A DNA stretch of 64,000 bases, taken from positions 1 to 64,000 of the forward strand of contig CAIVJW010000027.1 of NCBI GenBank assembly GCA_903906315.1. Direction: 5' to 3'. Below are positions 19,745 through 29,300 of this stretch, one piece after another. Position 1 is the first letter of the stretch. Each line of letters begins with the position of its first letter. The notes under the pieces were generated by a model. That model was not told where the DNA came from. It searched no databases and worked only from the letters and a program-made list of their open reading frames with translations. This DNA comes from an uncultured delta proteobacterium. GTDB lineage: Bacteria > Myxococcota_A > Polyangia > Polyangiales > Polyangiaceae. A program made the position numbers and the translations under genes.

Positions 19745-20797
19745 CTAGAACAACGACGCGGCCTTCGCGACGTCCTTGGCGACCACGCCCTGCGCGGCCA
19801 GCTGCTGCGCGTGCATCGCGAAGGTCTGCATGCCGTACGGGCTCACGCCCTTCTCCATCAGGTCCTTGAGCGACGGATTCGTGTCCGGGCGCCGGATCGA
19901 CTCGCGCACCGTCCCCGTCGCCACCAGCACCTCGGCGAGCAGCACCATGCCGGACTCGTCGCGCTTCGGCAGGAGGCGCTGCGCCATGATGCCCTGGAGG
20001 CTGTCGCCGAGACGGTCGCGCAGCTCGGAGGGGTTCTTCGCGAGCGCGATCAGGCGGCTGAGGGTGCGCCCGACGTCCGGCGTGTGCAGCGTCGACAGCA
20101 CGAGGTGCCCCGTCTCGGCCGCCTGAAGGGCGATCTCCATCGTGTCCTCGTCGCGGATCTCGCCGACGAGGATGACGTCGGGGTCCTGGCGGAGCGCGGC
20201 GCGCAGGGCGCCGGCGAACGTCTGCGTGTCGAGGCCGATCTCCCGCTGGCTCACGCTCGATCGGTTGTCCGCGTGCACGAACTCGATCGGGTCCTCGATC
20301 GTCACGATGTGCTTCGCGTAGTTGTTATTGATGTGGCCGATCATCGCCGCGAGGCTCGACGTCTTGCCGGAGCCCGTCGGACCGACCACGAGCACGAGGC
20401 CGCGGTCGAGCTCGGCGAGGCCCCGCACCGCGGTCGGCACGCCGAGCTCGTCGAACTGGGGGATTCGCAGCGGCACGGCGCGCATCACGAGCGCGAGCGA
20501 GTTGCGCTGCCGGTAGATGTTCACGCGGAAGCGGCCGAGCGCCGGCACCTCGTACGAGGTGTCGTACTCCTGGAGGGTCGAGACCTGCTCGCGCGCCGAT
20601 CGACCGGCGAGCACGAGGCGCGCGGCGGCCTCCGTGTCCTCCGGCCGGATCTTGTCGACGCGGAAGTAGACGATGTCGCCATGCACGCGCGCGCCCGGCG
20701 GCTGACCGACCTTGAGGTGGATGTCGCTGGCGCCAGCGGCGAGGGCCTTGCCGAGGAGCTGGTGGAGAAACGCCTCGCTCGAGTACGGGGTCGACAC
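19745..20797 (-). CDS. pilT: PilT-type twitching motility ATPase
   Basis: 350 residues from the GTG at 20797, where homology begins (MSTPYSSEAFLHQLL); the frame continues upstream without protein-like content. Hexameric motor that depolymerises type IV pili during retraction. Walker A GPTGSGKT at 139-146, Asp box TIEDPIEF, Walker B region DPDVILVGEIRDEDTM near 206-220 and His box HLVLSTLHT at 231-239 are all intact. The C-terminal segment TVRESIRR stands where PilT has its AIRE-type motif. It is encoded alone, 41 kb from the pilins near the window end, so it may be one of several PilT paralogues. Confidence 0.9.
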   Translation of the reverse strand: MSTPYSSEAFLHQLLGKALAAGASDIHLKVGQPPGARVHGDIVYFRVDKIRPEDTEAAARLVLAGRSAREQVSTLQEYDTSYEVPALGRFRVNIYRQRNSLALVMRAVPLRIPQFDELGVPTAVRGLAELDRGLVLVVGPTGSGKTSSLAAMIGHINNNYAKHIVTIEDPIEFVHADNRSSVSQREIGLDTQTFAGALRAALRQDPDVILVGEIRDEDTMEIALQAAETGHLVLSTLHTPDVGRTLSRLIALAKNPSELRDRLGDSLQGIMAQRLLPKRDESGMVLLAEVLVATGTVRESIRRPDTNPSLKDLMEKGVSPYGMQTFAMHAQQLAAQGVVAKDVAKAASLF

Positions 20798-20804
20798 GAG
20801 CCCG

Positions 20805-20810
20805 AAGCTA
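20805..20810 (-). promoter_or_regulatory. TAGCTT -10-like hexamer, leaderless spacing
   Basis: On the minus strand TAGCTT is followed by seven bases and the pilT GTG at 20797. Confidence 0.4.
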
Positions 20811-20909
20811 CCGCAAGTCGGTCGAGGCGAACGATCTTCGGCGCAAGGCGCCGGCCGACGCCGCCACCTCGACGCACCAGAAGGCCGAAACCGCGGGAGA
20901 TCTCGGGCG

Positions 20910-22972
<2,063 letters not shown>

Positions 22973-23094
22973 CTAGGCGGCCCCGCGCGGCGACGCAAGG
23001 TCGGGAAGTCGCCGGCGTCCCCGCCCCGAGACCGCTTGCGCCCGAGGCGCCGCGCGTCAACCTTGTCGGCCGAGGCGCCGAGGCCGCGCCGCAC

Positions 23095-23100
23095 GAGGAG
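23095..23100 (+). promoter_or_regulatory. Ribosome binding site deciding the selenoprotein start
   Basis: GAGGAG lies five bases before the GTG at 23106. This strong site, with no other start codon between it and the GTG, fixes the start of the short selenoprotein gene. Confidence 0.75.
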
Positions 23101-23105
23101 ACATC

Positions 23106-23324
23106 GTGGACATCGTCATCCGCTACTGCGTGGTCTGAAACTACAAGCCGAGGGCTGCGAGTCTCGCGGCCGAAATCGAGCGCGCGATGGGGGAACCCCC
23201 GCGGGTCGTGGCAGGCAAGACGGGCCAGTTCGACGTCCTCGTGGACGGGGCCATCGTCTTCTCGAAGCAGGCGGAGGGCCGGTTCCCCGAGCCCGCGGAG
23301 GTGATCGCGAAGCTCGGGCGCTGA
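23106..23324 (+). CDS. selW: SelW-like (Rdx family) selenoprotein
   Basis: 72 residues encoded by 73 codons including the stop, with an in-frame TGA at 23136-23138 that I read as selenocysteine at residue 11. The N-terminus MDIVIRYCVVUNYKPRAASL matches the Rdx/SelW thioredoxin-like fold, whose CxxU or CxxC redox motif follows the first beta strand (compare YCGAUGYKPK of animal SelW). The rest is colinear with the family: a helix LAAEIERAMG, GKTGQFDVLVDGAIVFSK, then EGRFPEPAEV, and a true TGA stop. Reading past the TGA restores the conserved family sequence on both sides, which argues against a pseudogene. A hairpin follows as expected for a bacterial SECIS. Proposed role: thiol or selenol redox, partner unknown. 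Ordinary gene calling would split or miss it. Confidence 0.9.
23153..23171 (+). promoter_or_regulatory. Candidate bacterial SECIS hairpin
   Basis: A seven-pair stem (GGCTGCG with CGCGGCC, including one G-U) closes a five-base loop AGTCT. The loop starts 21 bases after the TGA at 23136-23138, within the spacing known for bacterial SECIS elements, and carries a G at its second position as required for SelB recognition in the usual model. It lies inside the coding sequence and remains translatable. Confidence 0.65.
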
Positions 23325-23380
23325 CGCGCGCCTCACGACGGGACCGCGAACGGCCCGGGGTAGCGCGCACCGCCCGCGCG

Positions 23381-24388
23381 CTAGATCACGTCCTCGATCG
23401 CCCGCACGGTCGCCTCGATGCCGTGCTCGTGGCGGTAGCCCATGAGGTCCCGCGCGCGGCGGTCGTCGACCATGCACACGTAGCGAATGTGGTCGAGCTC
23501 GGGCGCGGGAAACGAGGTCGCGCGGTACTTCCACAGGCGCGAGACGGCACTCTTCGCGATCGAATGCGGCACGGCGATGCGGGGGCGCCCGGTGAGCCCG
23601 ACCAGGCGCGACAGCGGCAGCCCCGGCGGGCCGGCGAGGTTGAAGATGCCGCGCGTGCCCGGCTTCAGGGCCTGCACGATCGCGTTGACGATGTCGTCCT
23701 GGTGGATGACCTGCACCATCGGATCGAACCCGAGCAGGGTCGGGATGACCGACAGGCGCAGGTAGTTCGACGGCGCGTTGCGCACGGACCCGACGATGTG
23801 CGTCGGCCGCAGGATCACCGTCTCGGTCTCCGGCCGCTTCCAGAAGAACGACTGCGCGAGCATGTCGACCTCGATGAGGTCGCGGATCTCGCTGAACGAA
23901 GCGCCGCCGAGCAGCGGCGCGTCCTCGGTCAGGAACTGCGGGTTGTCGGGGCGCGGGCCGTACACCGAGGCGCTCGAGAGCACGATGACCTTGGGTATCT
24001 CGTACTGGGCGACGTACTCAAGCAGGCGCTGAAAGCCGGCGACGTTCCAGGTGTGGTGCTCCGCCTGGCTCGCGCGCGGGTCGTGCATCACGCCGAGGTG
24101 CACGAGCGCGGCGATGCGCTCCTGCCGGAAGACGTCCTGCGTCTTCTTGCGACGGATGTCGATCTGGTGGTGGACGACGTCCTTCGGCCGACCGGGGAAC
24201 TCGCGCCGATCGATGCCGATCACCCCGCGCTCGCGGTGCAGGCGTCGCGCGAGCCTCCGCCCGAGGCGGCCGCAGATCCCGGTGATGAGCACCGGCCGCG
24301 ACGCGAGATCGTCGTCCTCGGCGGCCTTGCGGCCCTTCGTGGCGGCCTTCCCGCGCGCCGCCGCCCCCTCGCGCTTGGCGTTCGTCAT
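23381..24388 (-). CDS. Extended SDR (NAD-dependent epimerase/dehydratase-like)
   Basis: 335 residues from the ATG at 24388 (an upstream TTG would add 13 residues). An N-terminal Lys/Ala-rich stretch (~25 residues) is followed by a Rossmann fold with GICGRLGRRLARRL at the coenzyme loop, VLSSASVYGP, and a region ending in IFNLAGPPGLPLSRL. The catalytic YxxxK is not obvious, so chemistry is uncertain. Extended SDRs act on nucleotide sugars or lipid intermediates. It is divergent from an acyltransferase gene and sits next to the selenoprotein. The substrate is not assignable from sequence. Confidence 0.8.
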   Translation of the reverse strand: MTNAKREGAAARGKAATKGRKAAEDDDLASRPVLITGICGRLGRRLARRLHRERGVIGIDRREFPGRPKDVVHHQIDIRRKKTQDVFRQERIAALVHLGVMHDPRASQAEHHTWNVAGFQRLLEYVAQYEIPKVIVLSSASVYGPRPDNPQFLTEDAPLLGGASFSEIRDLIEVDMLAQSFFWKRPETETVILRPTHIVGSVRNAPSNYLRLSVIPTLLGFDPMVQVIHQDDIVNAIVQALKPGTRGIFNLAGPPGLPLSRLVGLTGRPRIAVPHSIAKSAVSRLWKYRATSFPAPELDHIRYVCMVDDRRARDLMGYRHEHGIEATVRAIEDVI

Positions 24389-24479
24389 CGGAGGCCGAGA
24401 GTCGCCGCCGTCGGGCGGGCGAGTCAAGCGGCGGCGTGCGACGTTGCCCTCGGGGGTGTGCGCCGACCGGCAGCGGCGC

Positions 24480-24485
24480 TAGAGG
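24480..24485 (+). promoter_or_regulatory. TAGAGG -10-like hexamer near start
   Basis: TAGAGG is followed by nine bases and the ATG at 24495. The same bases also contain AGAGG, which could act as a Shine-Dalgarno at nine-base spacing, so the two readings compete. Confidence 0.25.
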
Positions 24486-24494
24486 TTGCGGGCC

Positions 24495-25421
24495 ATGGAC
24501 GCCTCGCGCGCGCTCGCCCGCATCGCCGACTTCGCCACCCGCGACGCGCTGCCCTTCGCGCGCCTCGTCTCGAACGGCGTGCAGCGCACCGCCGACGAGC
24601 TCGCGATCCGCATGCTCGGGAGCGATTTCGAGGATCGCCTGCGCCGCGTGCCGATCGTCCTCGCGGGCGGCGGCGTCGACCCGTTCGGCCTCGACATGTC
24701 CTGGGCGAAGTACTCGATGGGCGTCGGCGCCTTCTTCCATCGCTTCTATTTCCGCAGCGAGGTGCGCGACATCGACCGCGTGCCGCCCGGGCGCGTGCTG
24801 CTCATCTCCAACCACTCCGGCCAGCTCCCGTTCGATGGAATGGTGATCGTCGCGTCGATGTTCCTCGACGCGGAGCCGCCGCGGGTCGTGCGCAGCATGG
24901 TCGAGAAGTGGACGCAGACCCTGCCCTTCGTCTCGACGTTCTTCTCGCGCTGCGGCCAGGTCGTCGGCGTGCCCGAGAACGCGCGCCGCCTCCTCGAGCT
25001 CGGCGAGGCCATCCTCGTGTTCCCCGAGGGCGCGCGCGGCATCTCCAAGCCCTTCGTCGACCGCTACCACCTGACGGACTTCGGCCTCGGCTTCATGCGC
25101 CTCGCGCTCGAGACGAAGACGCCGATCGTGCCGATCGCGGTGGTCGGCGGCGAGGAGCAGTACGTCTCGCTCGGCAACCTCGATCGGGTGGCGAAGCTGA
25201 TGGGGGCGCCGTCGTTCCCCCTGATGCCGCAGCTGCTCGTGCCGGGCGGGCAACTGCCGCTGCCGACGAAGTACCGGGTGCACTTCGGCGAGCCGATGTG
25301 GTTCGACGGCGACCCCGACGACGACGACGCGGTGATCGACGAGAAGGTCCAGCGCGTGAAGGCGACGATCCAGTCGATGCTGAACCGCGGCCTGAAGCAG
25401 CGGAAGGCGATCTTCTGGTAG
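24495..25421 (+). CDS. Lysophospholipid acyltransferase (PlsC-like)
   Basis: 308 residues from the ATG at 24495; a TTG nine bases upstream is in frame but less likely. Acyl transfer to a lysophospholipid or glycerol-type acceptor at the inner membrane. Block I is NHSGQLPFDG, where His and Asp are separated by six residues instead of the usual four, as in DGAT-like and related LPLAT families. Block III FPEGARGI is intact. A hydrophobic segment around residues 100-120 may sit on the membrane. It is divergent from the SDR gene with ~106 bases between. Substrate uncertain. Confidence 0.8.
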   Translation: MDASRALARIADFATRDALPFARLVSNGVQRTADELAIRMLGSDFEDRLRRVPIVLAGGGVDPFGLDMSWAKYSMGVGAFFHRFYFRSEVRDIDRVPPGRVLLISNHSGQLPFDGMVIVASMFLDAEPPRVVRSMVEKWTQTLPFVSTFFSRCGQVVGVPENARRLLELGEAILVFPEGARGISKPFVDRYHLTDFGLGFMRLALETKTPIVPIAVVGGEEQYVSLGNLDRVAKLMGAPSFPLMPQLLVPGGQLPLPTKYRVHFGEPMWFDGDPDDDDAVIDEKVQRVKATIQSMLNRGLKQRKAIFW

Positions 25422-26357: not shown

Positions 26358-29300
26358 TCGCGCGGGCGCTGGTGCTGGCCCGAGACGTCGTCCTCGAGCA
26401 GCTCGGCGTCGTCGACGTCGGCGATCGAGTCCTCCATGCCGTCGAGCGAGGACGCATGCAGCGGCTGCGCCGACGAGGCTCCCGCTACCGGGGCGTAGCC
26501 GCCCGCGGCGGCCGGATCTGCGCCGCCAGCCGCCTGCGCGACCTGGGCCGCGTGAGCCTGCATCTGCCACGCGAACGCCTGCTGCGGGTCCATTTGCGCG
26601 ATCTGCGCGTAGTAGACGGCCCACGCCGCCGCCTGCGGGTCCACCGCCGCCTGGGCCTGGTAGTACGTCGCGTACTGCGCCGCGGTCGCCGGGTCGATCG
26701 GCGTGAACGGATCGGCGTAGCCGCCCTGCGCTTGCTGCGCTTCGGCCTGGCCGTAGCCCTGCGCTTGCGATGGCTGGGCCGCCCCATCGTCGGGAGCGTA
26801 GGCGACGGCCTGCGCGTCGGACGCGCCGTACGGCGCATACGCGGCCTGCGGGTCCTGCGTCGCCGCGTACGCCGGAGCCGCGAGGGCCTCCGGCTCCCCG
26901 TACGCCTCGGCATACGCCGGAGGGTGCGCCTCCGGAGCGGGGACGTAGGCCGCCGGCTCGGGCTGCGCGTACGGATGCGCGTAGGCGTCCACGCGGGGAG
27001 CTTCGGGCGACCCCGACAGCGGAGCGGACGCGTCGTGGGACACGAACGCGGGAGGGGCCGCGTACGCCGAGGGATTCTGGCCGTAGGACGGCATCCCGTG
27101 CAGCCCGGCGTCGAAGGCCAGCGGCGGCACCGGCAGCGGCACGACGAGGGGCTCGACCGGGGTCGGCTCTGCCACGAGCTCGGGCTCAGCCTCGGCCTCG
27201 AGATCGAGCTCGACCGGCGCGGGTACCGCTACGAACGCCGGCGGGGCCACGAAGGCAATCGGCGGCGGCGGGGCCGGGTCCGGGCTCGCTTCGGCCGGCG
27301 GTCGCTTTGCCATCGTGGGCGGGGCGACCATCGCCGGCGGCGGCGACGACGGCGTGGCCTTCCCGTCGCCATGAGGCGCGGGCGGCGGCGGCGGCCTCTT
27401 CAGCTTGCCGGCCTTGGCGCGCTCGAGACCGGCGCCGGCGTCGGGATCGCCGGCCTTCATGCGGAGCACGCGCCGCCAAGCGTCGGCAGCCTCGCGCGCG
27501 TCGCCCACGTCCTCTTCCCAGATGCGGGCGACCTTGCGAGCGAGCTCGGCGCGCAGCGACGGGTCGCGCCCGCGGAGGATCTGGTCCTCGTAGAGCTGGA
27601 TCATGCCGCGGTGATCGCCAAGCTCGAGCAAGAGCGCCGAGAGCTCGTTCATCACGTCCTGATCGGACGGCGAGAGGTCGTGCAGCTTCTTGAGATCGAC
27701 CGCGGCGCCCTTGCGATCGCCCAGGACCTCGCGGCGCAGCTTGGCGCGACGCTGAAGGAGCTTACGCACGAGCGGGCCGTCGAAGACCTCCTCGAGCGCA
27801 CGGCCGAGCGTGGCCTCGACGCGCGACATGTCCTCGACCTTGAAGCCGAGGTGCTCGAGCGCCTCGAGCGAGGCGTCGTCGACGTGCGTGACGATCGCAT
27901 CACCGAGCCAGCCGAACGCGCGGTCGATGTCGCCGAGATCGCGGTGGGCGATCGTCGCGGCCCGGCGCAGGAGCGCGCCGCGGGTCCGGCCGCCGTCGCG
28001 CGAGCCCTGCCCGCCGGCCGCGAGGGCCTCGGCGAGGATGCTGCGCAGCGCGGTGCTACCGGCGCGCTCGTCGCCGGTCAGCGCGGCGCCCTCGAGACCG
28101 GAGATGGTCTCTTCCTGAACGCCGCCCGAGAGGGCGAGCTCGAAGAACCCGCGCGCGCGGTCGGTCGCGCCGCGCTCGGCGGCGACCTGCGCGGCCCGTG
28201 CGAGAGCGGCGAGGCGATCGGCGGGAAGACGACAGCGGCCGACTTGGCGCTCGTAGAGGTCGATGACGTGCCCGGGAGCCTGCGTCAGCGCGGCGAGGCG
28301 GCCGAGGAGGCCCTCGACCTCGCCGGGAGGGACGCTCGTGAGCGCCGACTCGCCGTGTTGCATGGCCTCGATAGGGTCGACGCCTGCGGCGACGAGCACC
28401 TCGGCCTGGCGAACCAGCTCGGCCGCGCGGGCCGGCCCGGAGAGGTCGCGCGAGAGGATCTCGTGAGCGACGCCGAGCGCGTCCAGGTCCTTCGCCCGCG
28501 TGGCGATCTCCTCGAGGCGCGAGGCGAGCTCACCGTCGGCGCCGCGCGAACGCGCAAGCTCCATCGCCACCTGCACGGCGTCGGTCTCGCGACCGATGGA
28601 AAGAAAGCGCTCGAACGAGCCGCGGAGCGCCTCGTTGCGCTCGGGGCCGGAGCTCGACTCGTGCCACGCGACGAGCTTCGTGGCGACGATGCCCTTCCAG
28701 CCGAGGCGGTCGCCCAGGTCGACGTACGCCTTGCGGCAGGCCTCGTCGCCCTGGTCGGCGAGCTTCTCGAGCCCGGCGAGGGCTTCGTCGCCCCGGCCGA
28801 GCCGGTCGGCCAGCACGTCGGCCAGGCGGCGCGTCATGGCGCTCGCCTCGTCGTCGTCGCCCTCGACCTCGATCAGCGAGGTGAGCAGCGCGGGGACGCG
28901 GTCCCACAGCTCGAGATCCTCGCAGAGCTTGAGCAAGCGCGCGGCGGCGTCGAAGTCCTCCGCGTCGGCCGAGTGGACGACGTCGAGCGCGCGGATCGCG
29001 CCGCGCGGGTCGCCGAGCGGCCCCTCGTACAGCTGACCGAGGCGCTGCGCGATCTCGGTGCGCTCGGGGCCCGCCGTCAGGGCGAGCTCGCGCTCGAGCG
29101 CGTCGGCGGCGCCCTTCGGGTCGTCGCGCTTCTCGGCGAGATCGGCGATGGCCCGGAGCGCCGTGCGGTTGCTCGGGGCCATCCGGTGGATGGCCTCGTA
29201 GCGCTCGATCGCCTGCTCCAGGTCGCCGATGCTGTCGGCGAGCAGCTCCGCCTCGCGAAGCGCGATGGCGAGCTTCTGCTCGGGGTCCGTCGCGGCCGCG

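Follow-up and report, generated by a model that had tools for sequence, protein, structure and literature searches.

A SelW-like selenoprotein gene with an in-frame UGA and a bSECIS-like hairpin in a Polyangiaceae-like myxobacterium

The window, a 64,000-nt contig stretch from the genome of an uncultured myxobacterium, carries on its forward strand a short gene of the Rdx (SelW-like) family at positions 23106 to 23324. Its reading frame opens with a GTG at 23106, which is preceded, after a 5-base spacer, by the Shine-Dalgarno sequence GAGGAG (23095 to 23100, same strand), and terminates at a TGA at 23322 to 23324. The frame is interrupted at codon 11 by another TGA (23136 to 23138, forward strand), which falls at the fourth position of a CxxU redox motif, Cys8-Val-Val-Sec11 (23127 to 23138, forward strand). 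With this codon translated as U, the 72-residue product reads VDIVIRYCVVUNYKPRAASLAAEIERAMGEPPRVVAGKTGQFDVLVDGAIVFSKQAEGRFPEPAEVIAKLGR. A preliminary description of the locus had proposed just such a 72-residue gene, with GAGGAG five bases upstream, one in-frame TGA, a second TGA as the stop and the CxxU signature of the Rdx/SelW family in YCVV-UGA-NYKPRA, all of which is borne out by the letters of the sequence. Next to the gene are thiC and an epimerase gene, neither of which was found beside the copies of the relatives, and the gene context gave no functional clue. A pilT-like ATPase gene (19745 to 21028) lies within a few kb of the selW gene here and in three relatives.

Profile searches placed the translated product in the Rdx family. 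It matched the Pfam Rdx model PF10262 with an E value of 1.7e-17 (63.8 bits against a cut-off of 22.6) and TIGR02174 with an E value of 1.5e-14 (54 bits against a cut-off of 34.2). The PF10262 match runs unbroken from residue 3 to residue 69, thus covering both flanks of the TGA, in agreement with the proposed colinearity with the family up to the second TGA. With curated models matched above their cut-offs and a CxxU motif near the N terminus, the protein conforms to the definition of the Rdx/SelT-SelW-SelH group. The NCBIfam model NF041051 (SelTWH_Campy) also aligned over the whole length (E value of 8.8e-23), and its score of 80.3 bits falls just short of the equivalog cut-off of 88 bits; the window protein is related to that group more distantly. 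Homology to Rdx proteins of solved structure, which carry Cys at the column of the TGA, predicts a thioredoxin-like fold. No other Rdx gene was found in the source genome.

Bacterial SelW-like CxxU selenoproteins had already been reported by 2005, and both Pfam and NCBIfam models exist for them. They were the most abundant selenoprotein family in the Sargasso Sea set, with 48 genes (PMC1088965), were listed for Deltaproteobacteria in 2006 (PMC1794560) and are described under PF10262 as CxxU proteins "predicted with high confidence" in a 2026 review (PMC13188914). The window gene shares with these proteins the family, the motif, the Sec position close to the N terminus and a bSECIS shortly after the UGA with a G in its small apical loop; it differs in host lineage only, and we found no difference in kind. 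What is new here is a member in a Polyangiaceae-like myxobacterium, which leaves knowledge of the family unchanged. In the open-access literature, as far as our incomplete coverage extended, no paper was found that links myxobacteria with both selenocysteine and selenoprotein. Gene callers that take TGA as a stop truncate or miss such a gene, so selenium use by these bacteria can be under-annotated.

A single base separates TGA from TGC, and the interruption might therefore be suspected to reflect a pseudogene or a sequencing error, in which a Cys codon (TGC or TGT) had mutated or been misread. The conservation of the codon already refutes this explanation, to which we assign next to no probability. 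Homologues were found in 113 of 290 genomes of the class, and 94 of these 113 contain a copy interrupted by a single in-frame TGA. All 50 homologues of the TGA class that were read base by base have the TGA at the CxxU position, usually as codon 11, and a scan of GTDB r220 genomes, which overlaps partially with this set of 50, recovered TGA at the Sec column in 56 of 62 loci; the remaining six comprise five acidobacterial loci with CxxU one alignment column off and one with a glycine codon. Independent assemblies covering many genera and phyla thus agree on the column of the TGA, the hosts including Myxococcales, Polyangiaceae, Minicystis rosea, Acidobacteria, Binataceae, Desulfobulbus, Poribacteria, Planctomycetes and other metagenome-assembled genomes (MAGs). 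Among relatives with a named record, an uncultured Myxococcales MAG comes closest (65%). One Polyangiaceae MAG has a protein identical to that of a member of the window's family, which makes Polyangiaceae the probable affiliation of the host. Furthermore, comparison of the 60 codons past the TGA with the five nearest relatives yielded 12 to 15 differences at first, 10 to 16 at second and 26 to 30 at third positions. This excess at third positions indicates that the protein is under selection and that the frame did not arise by chance, which, together with the preservation of a downstream hairpin among relatives (see below), also speaks against a pseudogene.

The preliminary description had further proposed that U should align with U or Cys at residue 11 in relatives and that homologues lacking selenocysteine have Cys there. 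The first proposal held, with TGA at this column in close relatives and Cys in alignable Cys-form Rdx proteins. The second holds for those alignable proteins; most Cys forms of the class, however, are not close Cys versions of the window gene. Bacterial Cys-form Rdx proteins (e.g., PDB 2fa8, 2oka and 2p0g) belong to the same sequence family and have CxxC, with no TGA, where the window gene has CxxU, but most of those read in the class are longer (85 to 115 amino acids) and end in a conserved LGHSD tail (..GHSDR), constituting a separate longer subfamily. Among the remaining variants, the acidobacterial form has CxxU, one additional residue directly behind the U and an inserted segment in its C-terminal half, and one of its members has the glycine codon in place of TGA. 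In two relatives from selA-containing genomes (HWYGC and YSQAC), Cys occupies the Sec position and the motif's first Cys is absent, which amounts to a single-Cys form.

Downstream of the UGA, the transcript is predicted to fold into a bSECIS-like hairpin (23153 to 23171, forward strand) made up of eight base pairs (23153 to 23160 with 23164 to 23171) and a GUC apical loop (23161 to 23163). It lies 15 to 33 nt after the UGA, with a gap of 22 nt between UGA and loop. The hairpin conforms to the SECIS definition used in PMC1088965, in which a hairpin directly follows the UGA and its small apical loop contains a G. The folding energy of the window RNA alone was −14.1 kcal/mol, which is not exceptionally stable (z of −1.5). 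An Rfam scan of positions 22000 to 24500 matched no family, neither SECIS nor a TPP riboswitch at thiC; RF00031 (SECIS_1) found nothing in control genomes either and is therefore uninformative for bacterial SECIS.

The helix was fixed from the window sequence, and its pairing was then scored in 73 dereplicated sequences, one of them that of the window. This set of relatives allows covariation in a bacterial SECIS to be examined cleanly, with codon choice controlled for. In the control, 2,000 shuffles swapped codons only among sequences sharing the amino acid at a site, with no correction for kinship. Paired cells amounted to 89.7% in the real alignment versus 76.7% in the shuffles (standard deviation of 1.1%, maximum of 80.3%; z of about 12), and sliding one arm by 1 to 4 bases lowered pairing to between 25 and 51%. 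Codon usage or protein constraint could in principle mimic covariation, as the helix overlaps the codons of the conserved RAASLAA motif and most pairs involving first and second codon positions are fixed by the protein. The surplus pairing nevertheless resides in pairs between third positions, with the amino acids held fixed (99% versus 58% at 24-30, 90% versus 48% at 21-33 and 64% versus 44% at 18-36); for example, Ala GCG occurs with Leu CTC, whereas Ala GCC is accompanied by Leu CTG or TTG. Although the shuffle is uncorrected for relatedness, G-C as well as C-G versions exist in several lineages. These patterns make an origin in codon usage or protein constraint highly unlikely. The hairpin is thus under selection at the RNA level beyond what the protein requires.

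The source genome (8.79 Mb in 455 contigs, 98.6% complete) encodes the full selenocysteine machinery, whose presence had been anticipated from the gene itself and recommended as a check. The selC gene (contig C260, 23590 to 23683) exceeded its cut-off of 47 bits with a score of 68.6 and was called by ARAGORN as tRNA-SeC with anticodon TCA, and selB, also above its cut-off, starts about 120 bases away on the opposite strand. selA and selD were identified on two other contigs (C99, E value of 1e-141, and C436, E value of 2e-94, respectively). Across the class, selA was detected in 84 of the 94 genomes with a TGA copy versus 45 of the 196 without one (odds ratio of 28; Fisher p of 6e-28, not corrected for phylogeny), and in only 3 of the 19 genomes having just an uninterrupted Rdx gene. 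The ten genomes with a TGA copy and no clear selA are all drafts, six of them with SelB above cut-off and one with a selA fragment. This association with selA argues against a reassigned code in which UGA specifies a different amino acid (Trp, for instance), and against simple readthrough by a near-cognate tRNA. Such decoding finds no specific support, is at odds with the use of TGA as terminator by the window gene and many relatives and with Cys, not Trp, as the aligned residue in related families, and has only the slightest chance of being correct.

Collectively, the locus almost certainly encodes a small SelW-like selenoprotein with a predicted thioredoxin fold and a probable redox role, Sec being inserted at the UGA by means of the downstream hairpin. 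Strong evidence, short of biochemical proof, points to this insertion in the source organism. Ribosomes would pass the UGA at codon 11 without stopping, as SelB, bound by the hairpin just 3′ of it, would deliver Sec-tRNA(Sec), in turn made by SelA with selenophosphate from SelD. The expected end product is a 72-residue protein with a Cys-x-x-Sec active site, which, judging by motif and fold family, most probably functions in the cytosol as a redox protein of the thiol/selenol type. The short SelW is often the sole Rdx protein in Sec-using myxobacteria and nearly always keeps Sec, on which basis it might carry out a redox step that depends on selenium and differs from the one served by the longer Cys-form Rdx proteins, and would then form a separate functional subfamily; we regard this as a tentative and rather improbable extension.

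SelD is itself a selenoprotein in many bacteria. The selD gene of the source genome (C436, 13176 to 14102) has an in-frame TGA inside the N-terminal GGGU motif (QGGGU-ARK), and its product is thus probably a selenoprotein as well. A match to the formate dehydrogenase alpha subunit (contig C251, 24276 to 26165) contains one in-frame TGA, as does a second, N-terminal formate dehydrogenase piece nearby (28779 to 28937), both being probable further selenoprotein genes. Given the in-frame TGAs in selD and formate dehydrogenase, the genome likely holds at least three selenoprotein genes.
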